Shown piece after piece: positions 6,530-13,551 of a DNA stretch of 29,197 bases. The notes beneath the pieces are model-generated. The model worked only from the letters and a program-made list of their open reading frames with translations. It was not told where the DNA came from and did not search any database. The stretch is taken from IMG/VR virus record IMGVR_UViG_3300006079_000006, positions 1 through 29,197 of that record. The stretch is one strand, 5' to 3'. The position numbers and the translations under genes are program-made. This DNA is from a virus. Position 1 is the stretch's first letter. Each line of letters opens with the position of its first letter.

Positions 6530-7057
6530 ATGAAAATAATAATCCGTAAGATTAAAGACCTTATCCACGCTGAGTACAACCCCAGAGAACTAACACCAGA
6601 CCAACACCAGCAGCTTAAAGATAGCTTGACGAGGTTTGGAATGGTTGACCCTGTAATAGTAAACACCCACAAAGACAGAAAGGATATTATCGTAGGTGGA
6701 CACCAAAGGACAAAGGTCTGGCTAGAAATGGGAAACAAAGAAATTCCTACCGTAGAAGTTAAATTAAACCCAGAAAAGGAAAGGGAATTAAATATCCGAC
6801 TAAACAAAAACTCTGGTCAATGGGATTGGGAAGCACTTACAGAACATTTTGATACTGATAAGTTGGTGGAGTGGGGTTTTGAGGAGTATCAATTTCCAGA
6901 AGAATTAGACTTGGATGGATTCTTTGAGCCAGAAGAAGAAAAAGAGGAAGTATTTAAAATCACCCTTGAATATACGGAAGAAGATTATAATAAAATCATT
7001 GAAAAGTTAAGTGGTATTGAGGGAACAAAAGAGCAGATTTTTCTTGACTTATTATGA
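6530..7057 (+). CDS. ParB-like N-terminal domain protein
   Basis: A 175-aa protein with the ParB/sulfiredoxin-like fold: IKDLIHAEYNPREL at the start, LKDSLTRFGMVDPVIVN in the middle and the phosphate-binding signature VGGHQRTK (GGHQR at 56-60). In phages this domain is often found next to or fused with DNA methyltransferases. Here no methylase follows; instead the stop overlaps a DpdA-like transglycosylase by ATGA. The C-terminus is strongly acidic (EPEEEKEEV). It is not likely to be a partition protein, as no ParA or parS is seen. It may bind DNA or nucleotides for the modification enzyme. Confidence 0.75.
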   Translation: MKIIIRKIKDLIHAEYNPRELTPDQHQQLKDSLTRFGMVDPVIVNTHKDRKDIIVGGHQRTKVWLEMGNKEIPTVEVKLNPEKERELNIRLNKNSGQWDWEALTEHFDTDKLVEWGFEEYQFPEELDLDGFFEPEEEKEEVFKITLEYTEEDYNKIIEKLSGIEGTKEQIFLDLL

Positions 7058-8025
7058 GGATTTATCTTGCGTTAGCAAATGCGGGGGGGGGGTATGTTTT
7101 TAAAGATGCACCAATAGAACGATTAATGAAAATTTATCTTGCAGGATATTCAACACCTTGGGGGGGGAAAGTTGCAAGACAGGCAGAAAAAGAGATAATG
7201 GATATTTATTTAGCAGGGGCAGCAACAGGAAATAATAATTATCTATGGAGAAAAGAAAATCCTGATAAAGTTATGAATTTATTTTTAGCTGGAGGCGAAG
7301 GACATAGAAAAAATGAAATAGAAAAAGCAGGGTTGAATGCTCAAAAGATTCACGTATTGGAATCATTTTATTATATTGACGATTGGATGATACCTTACAT
7401 TAAAGACCATTGGAATTTTATGCTTGATTCTGGTGCTTTTACTTTTTTTAGTGGTAATGGAAATATAGATTGGAAAGAGTATACAAAAAAATATTGTAAG
7501 TTTATTAATGAAAATAATATTGACTTATTCTTTGAACTAGATATTGAAAAACTTACTTCGCTTAGTTATGTGGAGGATTTAAGAAAATACATTGAGGATA
7601 AAACAGGAAAACAGACTATACCAGTTTGGCGACCCTTTAGAGGAATGGATTATTGGTATAAAATGATTGAGGAATATAGTTATGTTGCTATCTCTGCGAG
7701 TGGTGCTTACGATAGTGGTTGGACAAGAAAACAGAATAGTGAAAAGATATTAAATAAATTATGTTCAGAAGCATATAAAAAAGGATGCAAAGTACACGGA
7801 TTGGGTTATACTTCATTAAAAGGATTGACTAAAGTAAAATTTGATAGCGTGGATTCTACGGCTTGGATATATGGAAATAGAGGTGGTTATTTATACCGAT
7901 TTAATGGAAGGACAATAGATAAAATAAACAAGCCAAAAGGAACAAGATTAAATTCCAAAAAGGCAGCGATTCATAATTTTAAAGAGTGGGTAAAATTTCA
8001 GAAATATGCAGAAAATAACTTATGA
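7054..8025 (+). CDS. dpdA: DpdA-like DNA guanine transglycosylase (TGT superfamily)
   Basis: A 323-aa protein with features of phage DpdA2-type enzymes, which replace guanine in DNA with a 7-deazaguanine base: LESFYYI (102-108), FMLDSGAFTFF with Asp125, FFELDIEKL with Asp163, VHGLGYTS (247-254) and SVDSTAWIYG with Asp267. Asp125 and either Asp163 or Asp267 are candidates for the catalytic pair. The Cys-rich zinc site of tRNA-type TGT is absent. The first 80 residues hold four M-x-[IL]-[YF]-L-A repeats (starting at residues 1, 25, 49 and 74) and two poly-G tracts. Clustering with queD, queE and folE strongly supports a DNA-modification role. The start overlaps the ParB-like gene. Confidence 0.8.
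   Translation: MRIYLALANAGGGYVFKDAPIERLMKIYLAGYSTPWGGKVARQAEKEIMDIYLAGAATGNNNYLWRKENPDKVMNLFLAGGEGHRKNEIEKAGLNAQKIHVLESFYYIDDWMIPYIKDHWNFMLDSGAFTFFSGNGNIDWKEYTKKYCKFINENNIDLFFELDIEKLTSLSYVEDLRKYIEDKTGKQTIPVWRPFRGMDYWYKMIEEYSYVAISASGAYDSGWTRKQNSEKILNKLCSEAYKKGCKVHGLGYTSLKGLTKVKFDSVDSTAWIYGNRGGYLYRFNGRTIDKINKPKGTRLNSKKAAIHNFKEWVKFQKYAENNL
7083..7092 (+). repeat. Poly-G tract, G10, in dpdA
   Basis: Ten consecutive Gs encode the end of Ala10 and Gly11-Gly13 of the DpdA-like protein. This is the longest G run in the window, in otherwise AT-rich DNA, and a likely slippage site. Confidence 0.9.
7160..7167 (+). repeat. Poly-G tract, G8, in dpdA
   Basis: Eight consecutive Gs cover the end of Trp36 and Gly37-Gly38 of the DpdA-like protein. 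A second slippage-prone run follows the first by about 70 bases; other runs of 8-9 Gs are at 4199-4206, 11408-11416 and 14648-14656. Confidence 0.9.
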
Positions 8026-8566
8026 AATAGATAAGGGAATTAATTTTGGTAAATGGAAAGACAAGACCTCACAATATCTATATTTTGAAAGTACTATTGA
8101 GATATTAAAAAAAATAAAAATTCCTAACTCAGTAGCAGATTATGGTGGTGGAAATGGACTATTAAAGCAATTTATTCCACAAATTAAAACTATAGATATT
8201 GACGAAAATAAGCAACCAGATTTGATTGATAATATACTAACTCATAATAACCACTACGAATTAGTAATAATAAGATTCGTTATACATTACCTTAATGATT
8301 ACGAAGTCATAGAATTATTTAAAACAATAAACGCAGACAATATACTTGTTATACAATTTGAGAATGAGGACTTAAAAACAAAATACCAAAATAGTATAAA
8401 TGAGTTTAAATATTTTAGGACAGAGAAACAATTAAAAGCATTACTACCTAAACATAAAAAAATTTACAATAGAGAATATGAAGTCACTGTAGAGTTTTAT
8501 AAGGAACGCTTAGGAGATGCAGATTATATAGCACATAAAGAGATTTTAAAGGCATACTATATATGA
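8006..8566 (+). CDS. Class I SAM-dependent methyltransferase
   Basis: A 186-aa Rossmann-fold methyltransferase. Motif I is VADYGGGNG (residues 43-51), the acidic motif II strand is TIDIDE (62-67), and the motif IV region is YELVIIRFVIHYLND (84-98). That region lacks the [DNS]PP[YFW] motif of N6-adenine/N4-cytosine methylases and the PC motif of cytosine-C5 methylases, so a small molecule or an unusual base is a likelier target. It overlaps the DpdA-like gene by 20 bases and lies before queD, so it is likely part of the same modification pathway. The substrate is not known; methylating a 7-deazaguanine is inference. Confidence 0.7.
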   Translation: MQKITYEIDKGINFGKWKDKTSQYLYFESTIEILKKIKIPNSVADYGGGNGLLKQFIPQIKTIDIDENKQPDLIDNILTHNNHYELVIIRFVIHYLNDYEVIELFKTINADNILVIQFENEDLKTKYQNSINEFKYFRTEKQLKALLPKHKKIYNREYEVTVEFYKERLGDADYIAHKEILKAYYI

Positions 8567-8588
8567 TAAGATTAATATTATTTTAACC

Positions 8589-8608
8589 GGGTTTTTTTGG
8601 ATAAACTC
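8589..8608 (+). promoter_or_regulatory. Possible leader hairpin upstream of queD
   Basis: GGGTTT (8589-8594) can pair with AAACTC (8603-8608), with one G-T pair and an 8-base loop. It lies in the 56-base gap before queD, the largest gap in this part of the window. It does not fit the preQ1 riboswitch pattern. The role, if any, is unknown. Confidence 0.25.
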
Positions 8609-8631
8609 AAATTATAAAACAAATGGATATA

Positions 8632-8991
8632 ATGTATAAAATAAGCAAAGAATTTCATTTTAGCTCAAGTCATCAACTAAAGGGATTACCAGACGACCAT
8701 CCTTGTAGTAGATTACACGGACATAACTATGTAACCACTTTTCATTTTCAAAGTCCAGAACTTAACGAGGTAGGGTTTATCATTGATTACAGAGAGCTTG
8801 ACGTAATAAAAAAATACTTGGACGACAAATGGGATCACCGCCACTTGAACGATATATTGCCGTTTAACCCTACGGCTGAATTAATTGCAGTATATTTGTA
8901 TGAAGAATTTAAAACAGATTACCCTCAATTAATAAGGGTAGATGTAAAAGAAACACCAAAGACACTAGCAAGTTATTCAACTAGTATATGA
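8632..8991 (+). CDS. queD: 6-carboxy-5,6,7,8-tetrahydropterin synthase QueD
   Basis: A 119-aa QueD (6-pyruvoyl-tetrahydropterin synthase family), which converts 7,8-dihydroneopterin triphosphate into 6-carboxy-tetrahydropterin, step two of 7-deazaguanine synthesis. The zinc ligands are His14 (SSSHQL), His29 and His31 (LHGHNY); Cys25 is the catalytic Cys, Asp68/His69/His71 lie in DHRHLND, and Glu107 is the likely pterin-anchoring residue. Length is normal. ATG 8632 gives the typical family start MYKISKEFHF; ATG 8623 would add three residues. It overlaps queE by ATGA. Key residues are intact, so it is probably active. Confidence 0.92.
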   Translation: MYKISKEFHFSSSHQLKGLPDDHPCSRLHGHNYVTTFHFQSPELNEVGFIIDYRELDVIKKYLDDKWDHRHLNDILPFNPTAELIAVYLYEEFKTDYPQLIRVDVKETPKTLASYSTSI

Positions 8992-9575
8992 AGATAAGTG
9001 AAATATTTTATTCCTTACAGGGCGAGGGTGCAAGGTCAGGAAGTGCAAACGTATTTATTAGAGTACAAGGATGCAAGACACAGAACGCTTGTTATTCAAT
9101 GGGTATAAGATGCGATACAGAGTTTGAAAGCGGTAAGGATTATTCTATTGATGAATTACTGGAAAGGATAAAAGAGTTTAATTGTAAGAACATTATTTGG
9201 ACTGGTGGAGAACCAGCCGACCAACTAACAACCGACATAGTGGAAAGGTTTAAAAAAGAAGGATATTACCAAGCGGTAGAAACAAGTGGATTATTTGCTA
9301 TTCCAGAAAATATTGACTATATTACAATATCACCAAAGGTAGCAGAACACGTTGTAAAAAAGAACTTTAAAAGGGCACACGAATTAAGATATGTAAGACA
9401 CGAAGGACAGGAGATACCACAACCACAAATAGAAGCAGACAATTACTATATTAGTCCTCACTCTGACGGATTCGATATAAATGAAAAGAATTTAAAATAT
9501 TGTATTAACCTATGTTTAAAGAATCCAAAATGGAAGCTATCGGTTCAGCAGCACAAGCTATGGAGCGTGTTATAA
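8988..9575 (+). CDS. queE: 7-carboxy-7-deazaguanine synthase QueE (radical SAM)
   Basis: A 195-aa QueE, the radical SAM enzyme that rearranges 6-carboxy-tetrahydropterin into 7-carboxy-7-deazaguanine. Family marks are FYSLQGEG (7-14), the Cys region with Cys29, Cys35 and Cys42 followed by DTEFESG, IIWTGGEP (69-76; the SAM-binding GGE), and a C-terminus PKWKLSVQQHK typical of QueE. The cluster Cys spacing is CX5CX6C, not the CX3CX2C of most radical SAM enzymes; QueE is known to vary here. The start overlaps queD by ATGA, and the end overlaps folE by 46 bases. Confidence 0.9.
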   Translation: MKISEIFYSLQGEGARSGSANVFIRVQGCKTQNACYSMGIRCDTEFESGKDYSIDELLERIKEFNCKNIIWTGGEPADQLTTDIVERFKKEGYYQAVETSGLFAIPENIDYITISPKVAEHVVKKNFKRAHELRYVRHEGQEIPQPQIEADNYYISPHSDGFDINEKNLKYCINLCLKNPKWKLSVQQHKLWSVL

Positions 9576-10069
9576 GCGAGTTTGACGACGTTACAAGAGA
9601 AGGATTAAGAGAAACCCCCAAAAGGTATATTAAGTTCTTAGACGAGTTTATAAACAAGGATAAGGAGTTTAAATTTACTACCTTTAAAAACGAGGGTATA
9701 GACGAAATGATAATACAGACAAATATTCCTTTTTATTCTTTATGTGAACACCACTTAGCACCGTTCTTTGGAGTGGCAAATATTGCCTATGTTCCAAATG
9801 ATAGAATAGTAGGTTTATCTAAGTTAGCACGGACAGTAGATTACTATGCAAGAAATTTCCAGAATCAGGAAAGAGTAACAACACAAATAGCAGAACGATT
9901 AACAAAAGAACTCAATCCCTTAGGTGTTGCAGTAGTATTGAAGGCTCAGCATCTTTGTATGGCTATGAGAGGAATAAAGAAACACGATGTATGGACAACG
10001 ACTTCTAAAATGACGGCTATCTTTAAAGAAGATTTGAGTTGTAGAAATGAGTTTTTAAACTTAATATAA
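9530..10069 (+). CDS. folE: GTP cyclohydrolase I FolE
   Basis: A 179-aa GTP cyclohydrolase I, which opens GTP to 7,8-dihydroneopterin triphosphate, the first step of both folate and 7-deazaguanine synthesis. The family core is complete: FYSLCEHHLAPFFG (Cys72, His74, His75), RIVGLSKLARTVDYYARNFQ, QERVTTQIA and HLCMAMRG with Cys143; Cys72, His75 and Cys143 are the expected zinc ligands. ATG 9530 gives a typical start; ATG 9512 would add six residues. It would supply pathway precursor during infection independently of the host enzyme. It overlaps queE and ends 6 bases before the terminase genes. Confidence 0.92.
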   Translation: MEAIGSAAQAMERVISEFDDVTREGLRETPKRYIKFLDEFINKDKEFKFTTFKNEGIDEMIIQTNIPFYSLCEHHLAPFFGVANIAYVPNDRIVGLSKLARTVDYYARNFQNQERVTTQIAERLTKELNPLGVAVVLKAQHLCMAMRGIKKHDVWTTTSKMTAIFKEDLSCRNEFLNLI

Positions 10070-12720: not shown

Positions 12721-12875
12721 TGACCAAAAATATTGCTAAGACAGGGGTTTTCGGCAACAGTATTAAAGACGTTGAAAGGTCTAAGTTGTACGAAGTTTTA
12801 TACTTCGCAATGGCAGAACGGGTAGAAACAGATATGCACAATGAACATACTAGTAGCAGCACCAACAAGCGATAA
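12720..12875 (+). CDS. Hypothetical small protein, 51 aa (possible frameshift partner)
   Basis: This starts in the stop of the upstream gene (TAATG, 12718-12722) and encodes 51 residues with a helical core (SKLYEVLYFAMAERVETDM). The same frame is open upstream back to 12615, so a -1 frameshift at the T9 tract would fuse it to the preceding protein. Its end overlaps the glycosyltransferase gene by 35 bases. It could be the second tail-chaperone component; the function is not proven. Confidence 0.45.
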   Translation: MTKNIAKTGVFGNSIKDVERSKLYEVLYFAMAERVETDMHNEHTSSSTNKR

Positions 12876-13551
12876 GAAGGATTATTGCCTTGACGTTTAT
12901 GCTAGGCAGGTACAATCTTTTACCTATATAGACTACGACACCTTTTTAGTAGACAATTCAAAAGACCCTAAGCATATTGAAAAGATATGGGATCTAGGAA
13001 TAGATGCAGAACGAGTAGAGCCTAAAGGAAGTCCGCTAGAGTTCATAACAGAGAGCCAAAACATTATCAGAGAAAAGGTATTAAGTGAGGGGTATGAGTG
13101 GTTGTTTATGTTAGAAACTGATGTCTTTGTTCCTTTGAGTATCTTAGATTATTTAATGATGTACTCAAACCCAGTACACACCTTCTCTTATTTTATAGGC
13201 AATTCTGCTTTATGTTTACAGGGTATAACAACAATGTCGGGAAACAAAAGAGGAATGAGAATACCCGCAGAAGTAGGTGATAGTTTATTTGGTTCTATTA
13301 AGCCGATACACGAATATAAAATAGGAATGGACTTTGACGTTTATGCAACAGGGATAGGATGCACATTAATACACAGGTCAGTTTTAAAGAAGGTTAAATT
13401 TAGAACAGGAAACCAGAAAGAGGTTTTTTCAGATTCTTATTTTTACCTTGACTTGAAACGGCTAGGTATAAGTCCTGTTTTAGATACAACAATTATTCCC
13501 GCTCATTATAGAAGCGACTCATTCATAACTGATTTAAGAATCTATAATTAA
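12841..13551 (+). CDS. GT-A-like glycosyltransferase
   Basis: A 236-aa protein with a nucleotide-diphospho-sugar transferase look: a Rossmann-like start (MNILVAAPTSDKKDYCLDVY), a FLVDNSKDP strand, the metal-binding acidic motif LETDVFVPLSI (a D-x-D variant) and a later acceptor region MDFDVYATGIGCTLIHRSVL. It probably transfers a sugar from a nucleotide-sugar donor. The substrate could be a phage structural protein, the modified DNA base or host surface glycan. It lies between chaperone-like and neck genes, favouring a virion target, but this is inference. No signal peptide or membrane anchor is seen. Confidence 0.65.
   Translation: MNILVAAPTSDKKDYCLDVYARQVQSFTYIDYDTFLVDNSKDPKHIEKIWDLGIDAERVEPKGSPLEFITESQNIIREKVLSEGYEWLFMLETDVFVPLSILDYLMMYSNPVHTFSYFIGNSALCLQGITTMSGNKRGMRIPAEVGDSLFGSIKPIHEYKIGMDFDVYATGIGCTLIHRSVLKKVKFRTGNQKEVFSDSYFYLDLKRLGISPVLDTTIIPAHYRSDSFITDLRIYN

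Follow-up and report, generated by a model that had tools for sequence, protein, structure and literature searches.

Cui and colleagues are said to have described, in 2023, eight 7-deazaguanine bases in phage DNA, dCDG included. The described systems closest to the locus studied here are the phage preQ0 cassettes, such as those of CAjan and Rosebush (FolE-QueD-QueE-QueC-DpdA), and the dG+ cassette of phage 9g; DNA modification has been measured experimentally in 9g and CAjan (PMC6884629). We analysed IMG/VR virus record IMGVR_UViG_3300006079_000006, a linear genome fragment of 29,197 bases from an uncultured phage (the window). At positions 6530-10069 it carries, in this order, genes for a ParB-like protein, DpdA, a putative class I S-adenosylmethionine (SAM)-dependent methyltransferase (MT), QueD, QueE and FolE, followed by terminase genes. 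MT occupies the slot between dpdA and queD that QueC fills in many related cassettes. We tentatively propose, as a reading of sequence that may well prove wrong, that this island makes a 7-deazaguanine without QueC, MT methylating 7-carboxy-7-deazaguanine (CDG) and DpdA inserting the product into DNA. The terminase had its nearest relatives in phages of Bacteroides, Flavobacterium and Cellulophaga, which points to a likely host in the Bacteroidota.

An earlier note, made from the letters of the window alone, had placed DpdA, QueD, QueE and FolE in one overlapping run at 7054-10069. The four genes were recovered there as open reading frames with family matches, but the run was not unbroken: the note had overlooked MT, which overlaps dpdA by 20 nt and ends 56 nt before queD, and had noticed neither the slot exchange nor the altered DpdA loop described below. 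QueD matched PTPS (1.7e-30) and FolE matched PF01227 (1.4e-59), their solved relatives being 6-carboxytetrahydropterin synthase and GTP cyclohydrolase. QueE matched TIGR04508 at 7.6e-34, under the curated cut-off, and the CDG synthase structure 4njg at 1.3e-20. The note's claim of intact key residues held for QueE as far as the family match, but not for the usual cluster motif, as its cluster cysteines form C-x5-C-x6-C rather than CxxxCxxC or Cx14CxxC. Of 47 distinct QueE segments from related phages, 30 showed the same pattern, and by family match the protein is a QueE despite this unusual motif. Other phage QueE proteins of the compared set had C-x3-C plus a distant third cysteine.

As the note had stated, the window contains no QueC-like gene: PF06508 had no match anywhere in the record, and the same profile was positive in 12 of 14 control genomes. 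FolE, QueD and QueE of the canonical preQ0 cassette were present and QueC was absent. Because the record is a linear fragment, this absence alone is weak proof, and the comparative data bear the argument.

To compare the locus with its relatives, we collected about 60 contigs from IMG/VR scans with DpdA, QueE and MT. Most of them kept the order ParB-DpdA-slot-QueD-QueE-FolE-TerS. The DpdA and QueE scans together retrieved 54 contigs, of which 27 carried QueC, 9 carried MT and none carried both (Fisher test, P = 9e-4). QueC was found in 0 of about 18 MT contigs tested, including contigs of 59.6, 32.4, 25.9 and 22.0 kb; the truncated contig L089 was checked with a local profile. The window being a genome fragment, QueC could lie in the unsequenced remainder of an ordinary preQ0 phage in which MT is incidental, an option that the note had listed; the QueC-free MT contigs disfavour it, and we regard it as very improbable. 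On the whole, the note's account of an island for 7-deazaguanine modification of DNA that lacks QueC is well supported.

Close relatives differed at the slot in three phage pairs, two of them by MT versus QueC and one by MT versus a QueC-like fragment. The sequences flanking the slot were 95.7% and 99.1% identical between L004 (QueC-QueD) and L006 (MT-QueD), 96.1% and 91.8% identical between L049 (DpdA-QueC) and L050 (DpdA-MT), and 86-94% identical between L002 (MT) and L007 (a 145-residue QueC-like PP-loop fragment). On the FolE tree the MT label required 12 changes, at least 6 of which were forced by supported branches, and an identical FolE accompanied QueC in L049 and MT in L050. The pairs and the tree indicate repeated exchange rather than loss in a single lineage. 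Gene order varied around MT (L071, L073, L077, L078/79, L080 and L081) with the pathway genes always present, and DpdA accompanied MT everywhere but in L072 and the truncated L089. Other slot occupants were a QueC-like PP-loop protein minus its C-terminal part, a protein of 111-116 residues with no Pfam match, which we read as a QueD paralogue, and further genes.

Several of the related cassettes had features of their own. QueC relatives keep the SGGQDS loop, and in L004, L017-L019, L023, L036, L040, L043, L047, L049 and L052 they do so without any of the four zinc cysteines (TDYNG...NPAT versus TCYNG...CGxCPAC). Since this applies to most QueC relatives of the lineage, even the product of the "QueC" cassettes may here be something other than preQ0. 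In L028 (2079-3367) and L051 (6263-7563) the slot holds a putative QueD paralogue of 111-113 residues together with a glycosyltransferase-like protein, whose product could be a glycosylated 7-deazaguanine. Some contigs encoded, inside or close to a cassette that by itself already leads to CDG, a small membrane protein with a distant relationship to the Vut_1/YhhQ family of preQ0 transporters.

MT is 186 residues long. PF13489 (Methyltransf_23) matched 7 of 7 family members (best 2.9e-6), the score of the window MT itself falling under the gathering score. The Foldseek neighbours of its AlphaFold model (pLDDT 87.4) were class I SAM methyltransferases; the carboxyl methyltransferase BioC came first, and the mixture that followed included ChlM, another carboxyl methyltransferase. 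Motif I (VAD[YF]GG[AG]NG, a GGxN form) and an acidic DxD were conserved, and the SAM-binding motifs were invariant in 16 members. With its predicted Rossmann-type fold and motifs I and II, MT has the defining features of a class I SAM-dependent methyltransferase. DPPY-like and PCQ catalytic motifs were found in none of the 16 members, and MT was therefore rejected as an N6A, N4C or m5C DNA-base methyltransferase. A tblastn search with three MT members against 50,697 phage records gave no match, and hence no isolate phage with MT. One of two GTDB scans was empty and the other gave one weak partial match, in Propioniferax (29% over 86 residues), and MT was accordingly rejected as a host gene. 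BFVD held one relative (59%), an uncharacterised protein of an uncultured phage. Judging from these searches, the MT family is phage-only and previously undescribed.

Alternatively, MT might in practice not transfer methyl groups but use the same fold to tailor CDG in another way, for instance as a decarboxylase leading to dDG, as predicted for DpdL. The slot does host other non-QueC genes, such as the putative QueD paralogue of 111-116 residues. The invariance of the SAM-binding motifs argues against this possibility, as does, for equivalence with DpdL or DpdM, the lack of any MT match among the phage records, since those two enzymes reportedly come from isolate phages; we consider it quite improbable.

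The window DpdA fell into PHROG 887 (8e-44), to which the DpdA proteins of 9g and CAjan were also assigned, and a profile built from its family scored each of these two at about 81 bits. The DSGAF and VDS catalytic motifs aligned between the window family and 9g/CAjan DpdA. Residues D125 (DSGAF), D163 and D267 (SVDS) were invariant across 25 DpdA relatives, so the two catalytic aspartates are present. The Foldseek neighbours of the DpdA model (pLDDT 77.8) were generic TIM barrels, with TGT absent among the top 50 PDB matches; we therefore dropped placement on TGT by fold, and the identity of DpdA rests on PHROG, profile and motifs. DpdA is homologous to TGT and PHROG 887 is named queuine tRNA-ribosyltransferase, so the genes might modify tRNA in queuosine fashion rather than DNA. 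This seems extremely improbable to us, as the same PHROG holds the DNA-acting DpdA of 9g and CAjan (PMC6884629) and Pfam TGT matched neither the window DpdA nor that of 9g. A ParB-like gene adjoined dpdA in nearly all related cassettes and also in Cellulophaga phage phi38:2; its product is possibly a DpdB-like helper of DpdA.

In bacterial TGT, the loop at the GGLAVGE position contacts the 7-substituent of the base. The corresponding DpdA loop was GGIVTxEIKR/GGIVxxEIKR or GAFITD in 13 of 14 QueC cassettes, GGLVG in 9g and GGMVG in CAjan, and GGIV or GGLV in L013 and L020, phages with only the transporter. The DpdA of main-clade MT cassettes instead had an S-x-S-G-x-Y-x-S-x-W loop with an insertion. 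Among distinct DpdA sequences, 9/9 from MT and 1/14 from QueC cassettes had the S-x-S-G loop (P = 1e-5). This association bears on the possibility that host QueC finishes the pathway to preQ0, MT modifying preQ0, preQ1 or another target. QueC is common in bacteria, and published DpdA-only phages may draw on host precursors (PMC6884629), but host supply predicts neither the strict MT/QueC exclusion nor the non-GGxV loop of the main clade. A search for QueF, a gene that the note had named for follow-up, gave no clear QueF in the MT contigs; weak PF14489 matches, where checked, were FolE, which has a homologous fold. Host supply is thus clearly unlikely in our estimate.

Under the proposal of CDG methylation, FolE, QueD and QueE would convert GTP to CDG. 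MT would then methylate CDG with SAM as the donor, at the step where QueC forms the amide and nitrile; the carboxylate would be the likeliest acceptor, and the product a methyl ester, 7-methoxycarbonyl-7-deazaguanine. The carboxylate is favoured because it is the group on which the slot enzymes of known chemistry, QueC and Gat-QueC, work, and because in tRNA the class I enzymes Trm9 and CmoM form esters on carboxylated wobble bases. DpdA, with its altered 7-substituent loop, would exchange guanine in DNA for the methylated base, perhaps assisted by the ParB-like protein. The changed loop suggests methylation before insertion, in the main clade at least.

The pathway might instead stop at CDG, which would be inserted directly, the altered loop taking the carboxylate and MT acting elsewhere or after insertion. 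FolE, QueD, QueE and DpdA should suffice for this, the window DpdA loop is unlike that of preQ0-type DpdA, and dCDG is itself reportedly a described phage nucleoside. CDG has also been raised as a possibility for the QueC-less phage Bipper (PMC6884629). However, plain dCDG leaves unexplained why MT repeatedly replaces QueC and stays with the pathway genes when their order is rearranged; we judge it unlikely, if less so than host supply. Among the three options that the note had offered, a local enzyme making another end product fits best, and direct CDG insertion keeps a place beside it.

Several observations weigh against the methylation proposal. When corrected for phylogeny, the comparison of loop with slot left three independent pairs, of which two agreed and one was a tie, and was non-significant. 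In L004 a QueC-like gene stands beside an MT-type DpdA (330/335 residues identical to the L006 DpdA), so this DpdA may not be limited to a single base; the sequences are consistent with a recent slot swap. The divergent MT cassettes L077-L081 keep GGxx loops, which confines the loop rule to one DpdA clade, and the Foldseek neighbours of MT are of mixed kinds and do not diagnose its acceptor. Gene identities, slot exchange, MT/QueC exclusion and the main-clade loop association were read from the sequences; the activity of MT, CDG as its substrate, the carboxylate as its target, methylation ahead of insertion and the consequence for restriction are what we infer.

If the proposal holds, the phage DNA would carry a new base, methyl-esterified CDG. 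A methyltransferase confined to phages would make it in place of QueC, a DpdA whose 7-substituent loop had been retuned would insert it, and the slot would be an exchangeable chemistry switch; we offer this fuller version with a little more reserve than the methylation proposal itself. To our knowledge, a CDG methyl ester is not among the phage 7-deazaguanine bases, and a literature search found no report of it as a DNA base. Restriction resistance has been published for other 7-deazaguanine DNAs (PMC6884629), and by analogy the resistance anticipated in the note is plausible for this phage.

Beside these results, the 5' end of dpdA showed an unusual organisation. In the window and in L002, L004, L007, L010, L023, L036, L045, L049, L054 and L070 it consists of one to five short tandem ATG-started units, each beginning M-x-[IV]-[YF]-[LM]-A-[GAS], and the N-terminal modules reappear in differing order from phage to phage. 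The fourth unit of the window DpdA joins the core at M74 (nt 7273); residues 1-72 were modelled at pLDDT 36-53, and those from M74 onward at about 70-98. Met came first in 25 of 26 internal units and Met-Ser in the other, and the sequence upstream of them was A-rich (P = 7e-7). The array suggests that translation may begin at several internal sites or that recombination shuffles the modules. The first unit contains a G10 tract at 7083, followed by a G8 tract at 7160. In near-identical contigs the first-unit tract was G9 (L036) or G10 (L037, L039 and L041), and in L023 it was G14; a change in its length shifts the frame of the first ATG. Phase variation by this tract was considered and left as unproved, the L036 tract lying at a contig end and the collection scan adding no cases. 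The coding strands of this 35% GC genome hold five runs of at least eight G (4199, 7083, 7160, 11408 and 14648), against 0.27 expected from synonymous codon shuffles, and those at 7160 and 11408 are broken by synonymous changes in the near-identical L001. Coordinates are collected in Table 1. An open reading frame at 12841-13551, amid structural genes, appeared glycosyltransferase-like when its translation was judged by eye.

Table 1. Positions of the island genes in the window and of further tailoring or transport genes in related contigs
Feature	Location	Strand	Remarks
ParB-N-domain protein	window 6530..7057	+	PF02195 2.3e-6; PHROG ParB-like
DpdA, DNA guanine transglycosylase, TGT superfamily	window 7054..8025	+	323 residues counted from first ATG; PHROG 887
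dpdA N-terminal array, three extra ATG-started units	window 7054..7272	+	MRIYLAL..., MKIYLAG..., MDIYLAG...
DpdA loop SASGAYDSGWTR, residues 214-225	window 7693..7728	+	aligned position of the TGT 7-substituent-recognition loop GGLAVGE
MT, class I SAM-dependent methyltransferase-like, in the QueC slot	window 8006..8566	+	fold, PF13489 family, slot exchange
QueD, 6-carboxytetrahydropterin synthase	window 8623..8991	+	CSRLHGH metal/catalytic motif present
QueE, CDG synthase, radical SAM	window 8988..9575	+	atypical C-x5-C-x6-C cluster motif
FolE, GTP cyclohydrolase I	window 9512..10069	+	CEHHLAPFFG motif
Vut_1/YhhQ-like protein	L012 3892-4398; L054 2358-2864; L033 7110-7610		
Vut_1/YhhQ-like protein	L055 685-1203; L072 11124-11612		
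DUF5591 (ArcS-like) protein	L009 5435-6091		tailoring gene in same island
QueF	L052 4943-5356		tailoring gene in same island
GATase-QueC fusion	L024 3364-4557		tailoring gene in same island

The proposal predicts a DNA nucleoside absent from known published reports and names its enzyme. The near-identical pairs L004/L006 and L049/L050 provide a natural experiment on the change of a DNA base and on substrate selection by DpdA, and, inside one clade, the DpdA loop supplies a rule that can be tested for predicting the inserted base from sequence. If the proposal is true, phages alter the chemistry of their DNA by exchanging cassettes, presumably to counter restriction systems that recognise guanine.

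Compared with the phage preQ0 cassettes, the island shares FolE, QueD, QueE, the DpdA PHROG and the proposed route to CDG, but it has MT for QueC and a SASGxYDSxW loop for GGxV, and preQ0 is not its expected product. The 9g cassette likewise would tailor the 7-substituent through an enzyme swap at the QueC position and has a homologous DpdA, whereas MT has a SAM-methyltransferase fold and the 9g enzyme is an amidotransferase-QueC fusion. DpdM, DpdL and DpdN are reportedly tailoring enzymes that likewise yield further 7-deazaguanine DNA bases. DpdM, reportedly described by Cui and colleagues in 2023, is said to act on dPreQ1 and to have a fold not seen before among nucleic-acid methylases; by that description MT differs in its class I fold, in having no accompanying QueC and in having no relative among the isolate-phage records searched. 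Trm9 and CmoM resemble MT in their manner of working only, with a class I SAM fold and a methyl ester placed on a carboxylated base, as proposed for MT; their substrate is a tRNA uridine, and that of MT would be CDG or DNA. The bacterial dpd island (DpdA/DpdB, QueC, DpdC and others) shares with the phage cassette a DpdA with a ParB-like partner and QueD/QueE, while the phage cassette is without QueC and has no product assigned as DpdC-like.

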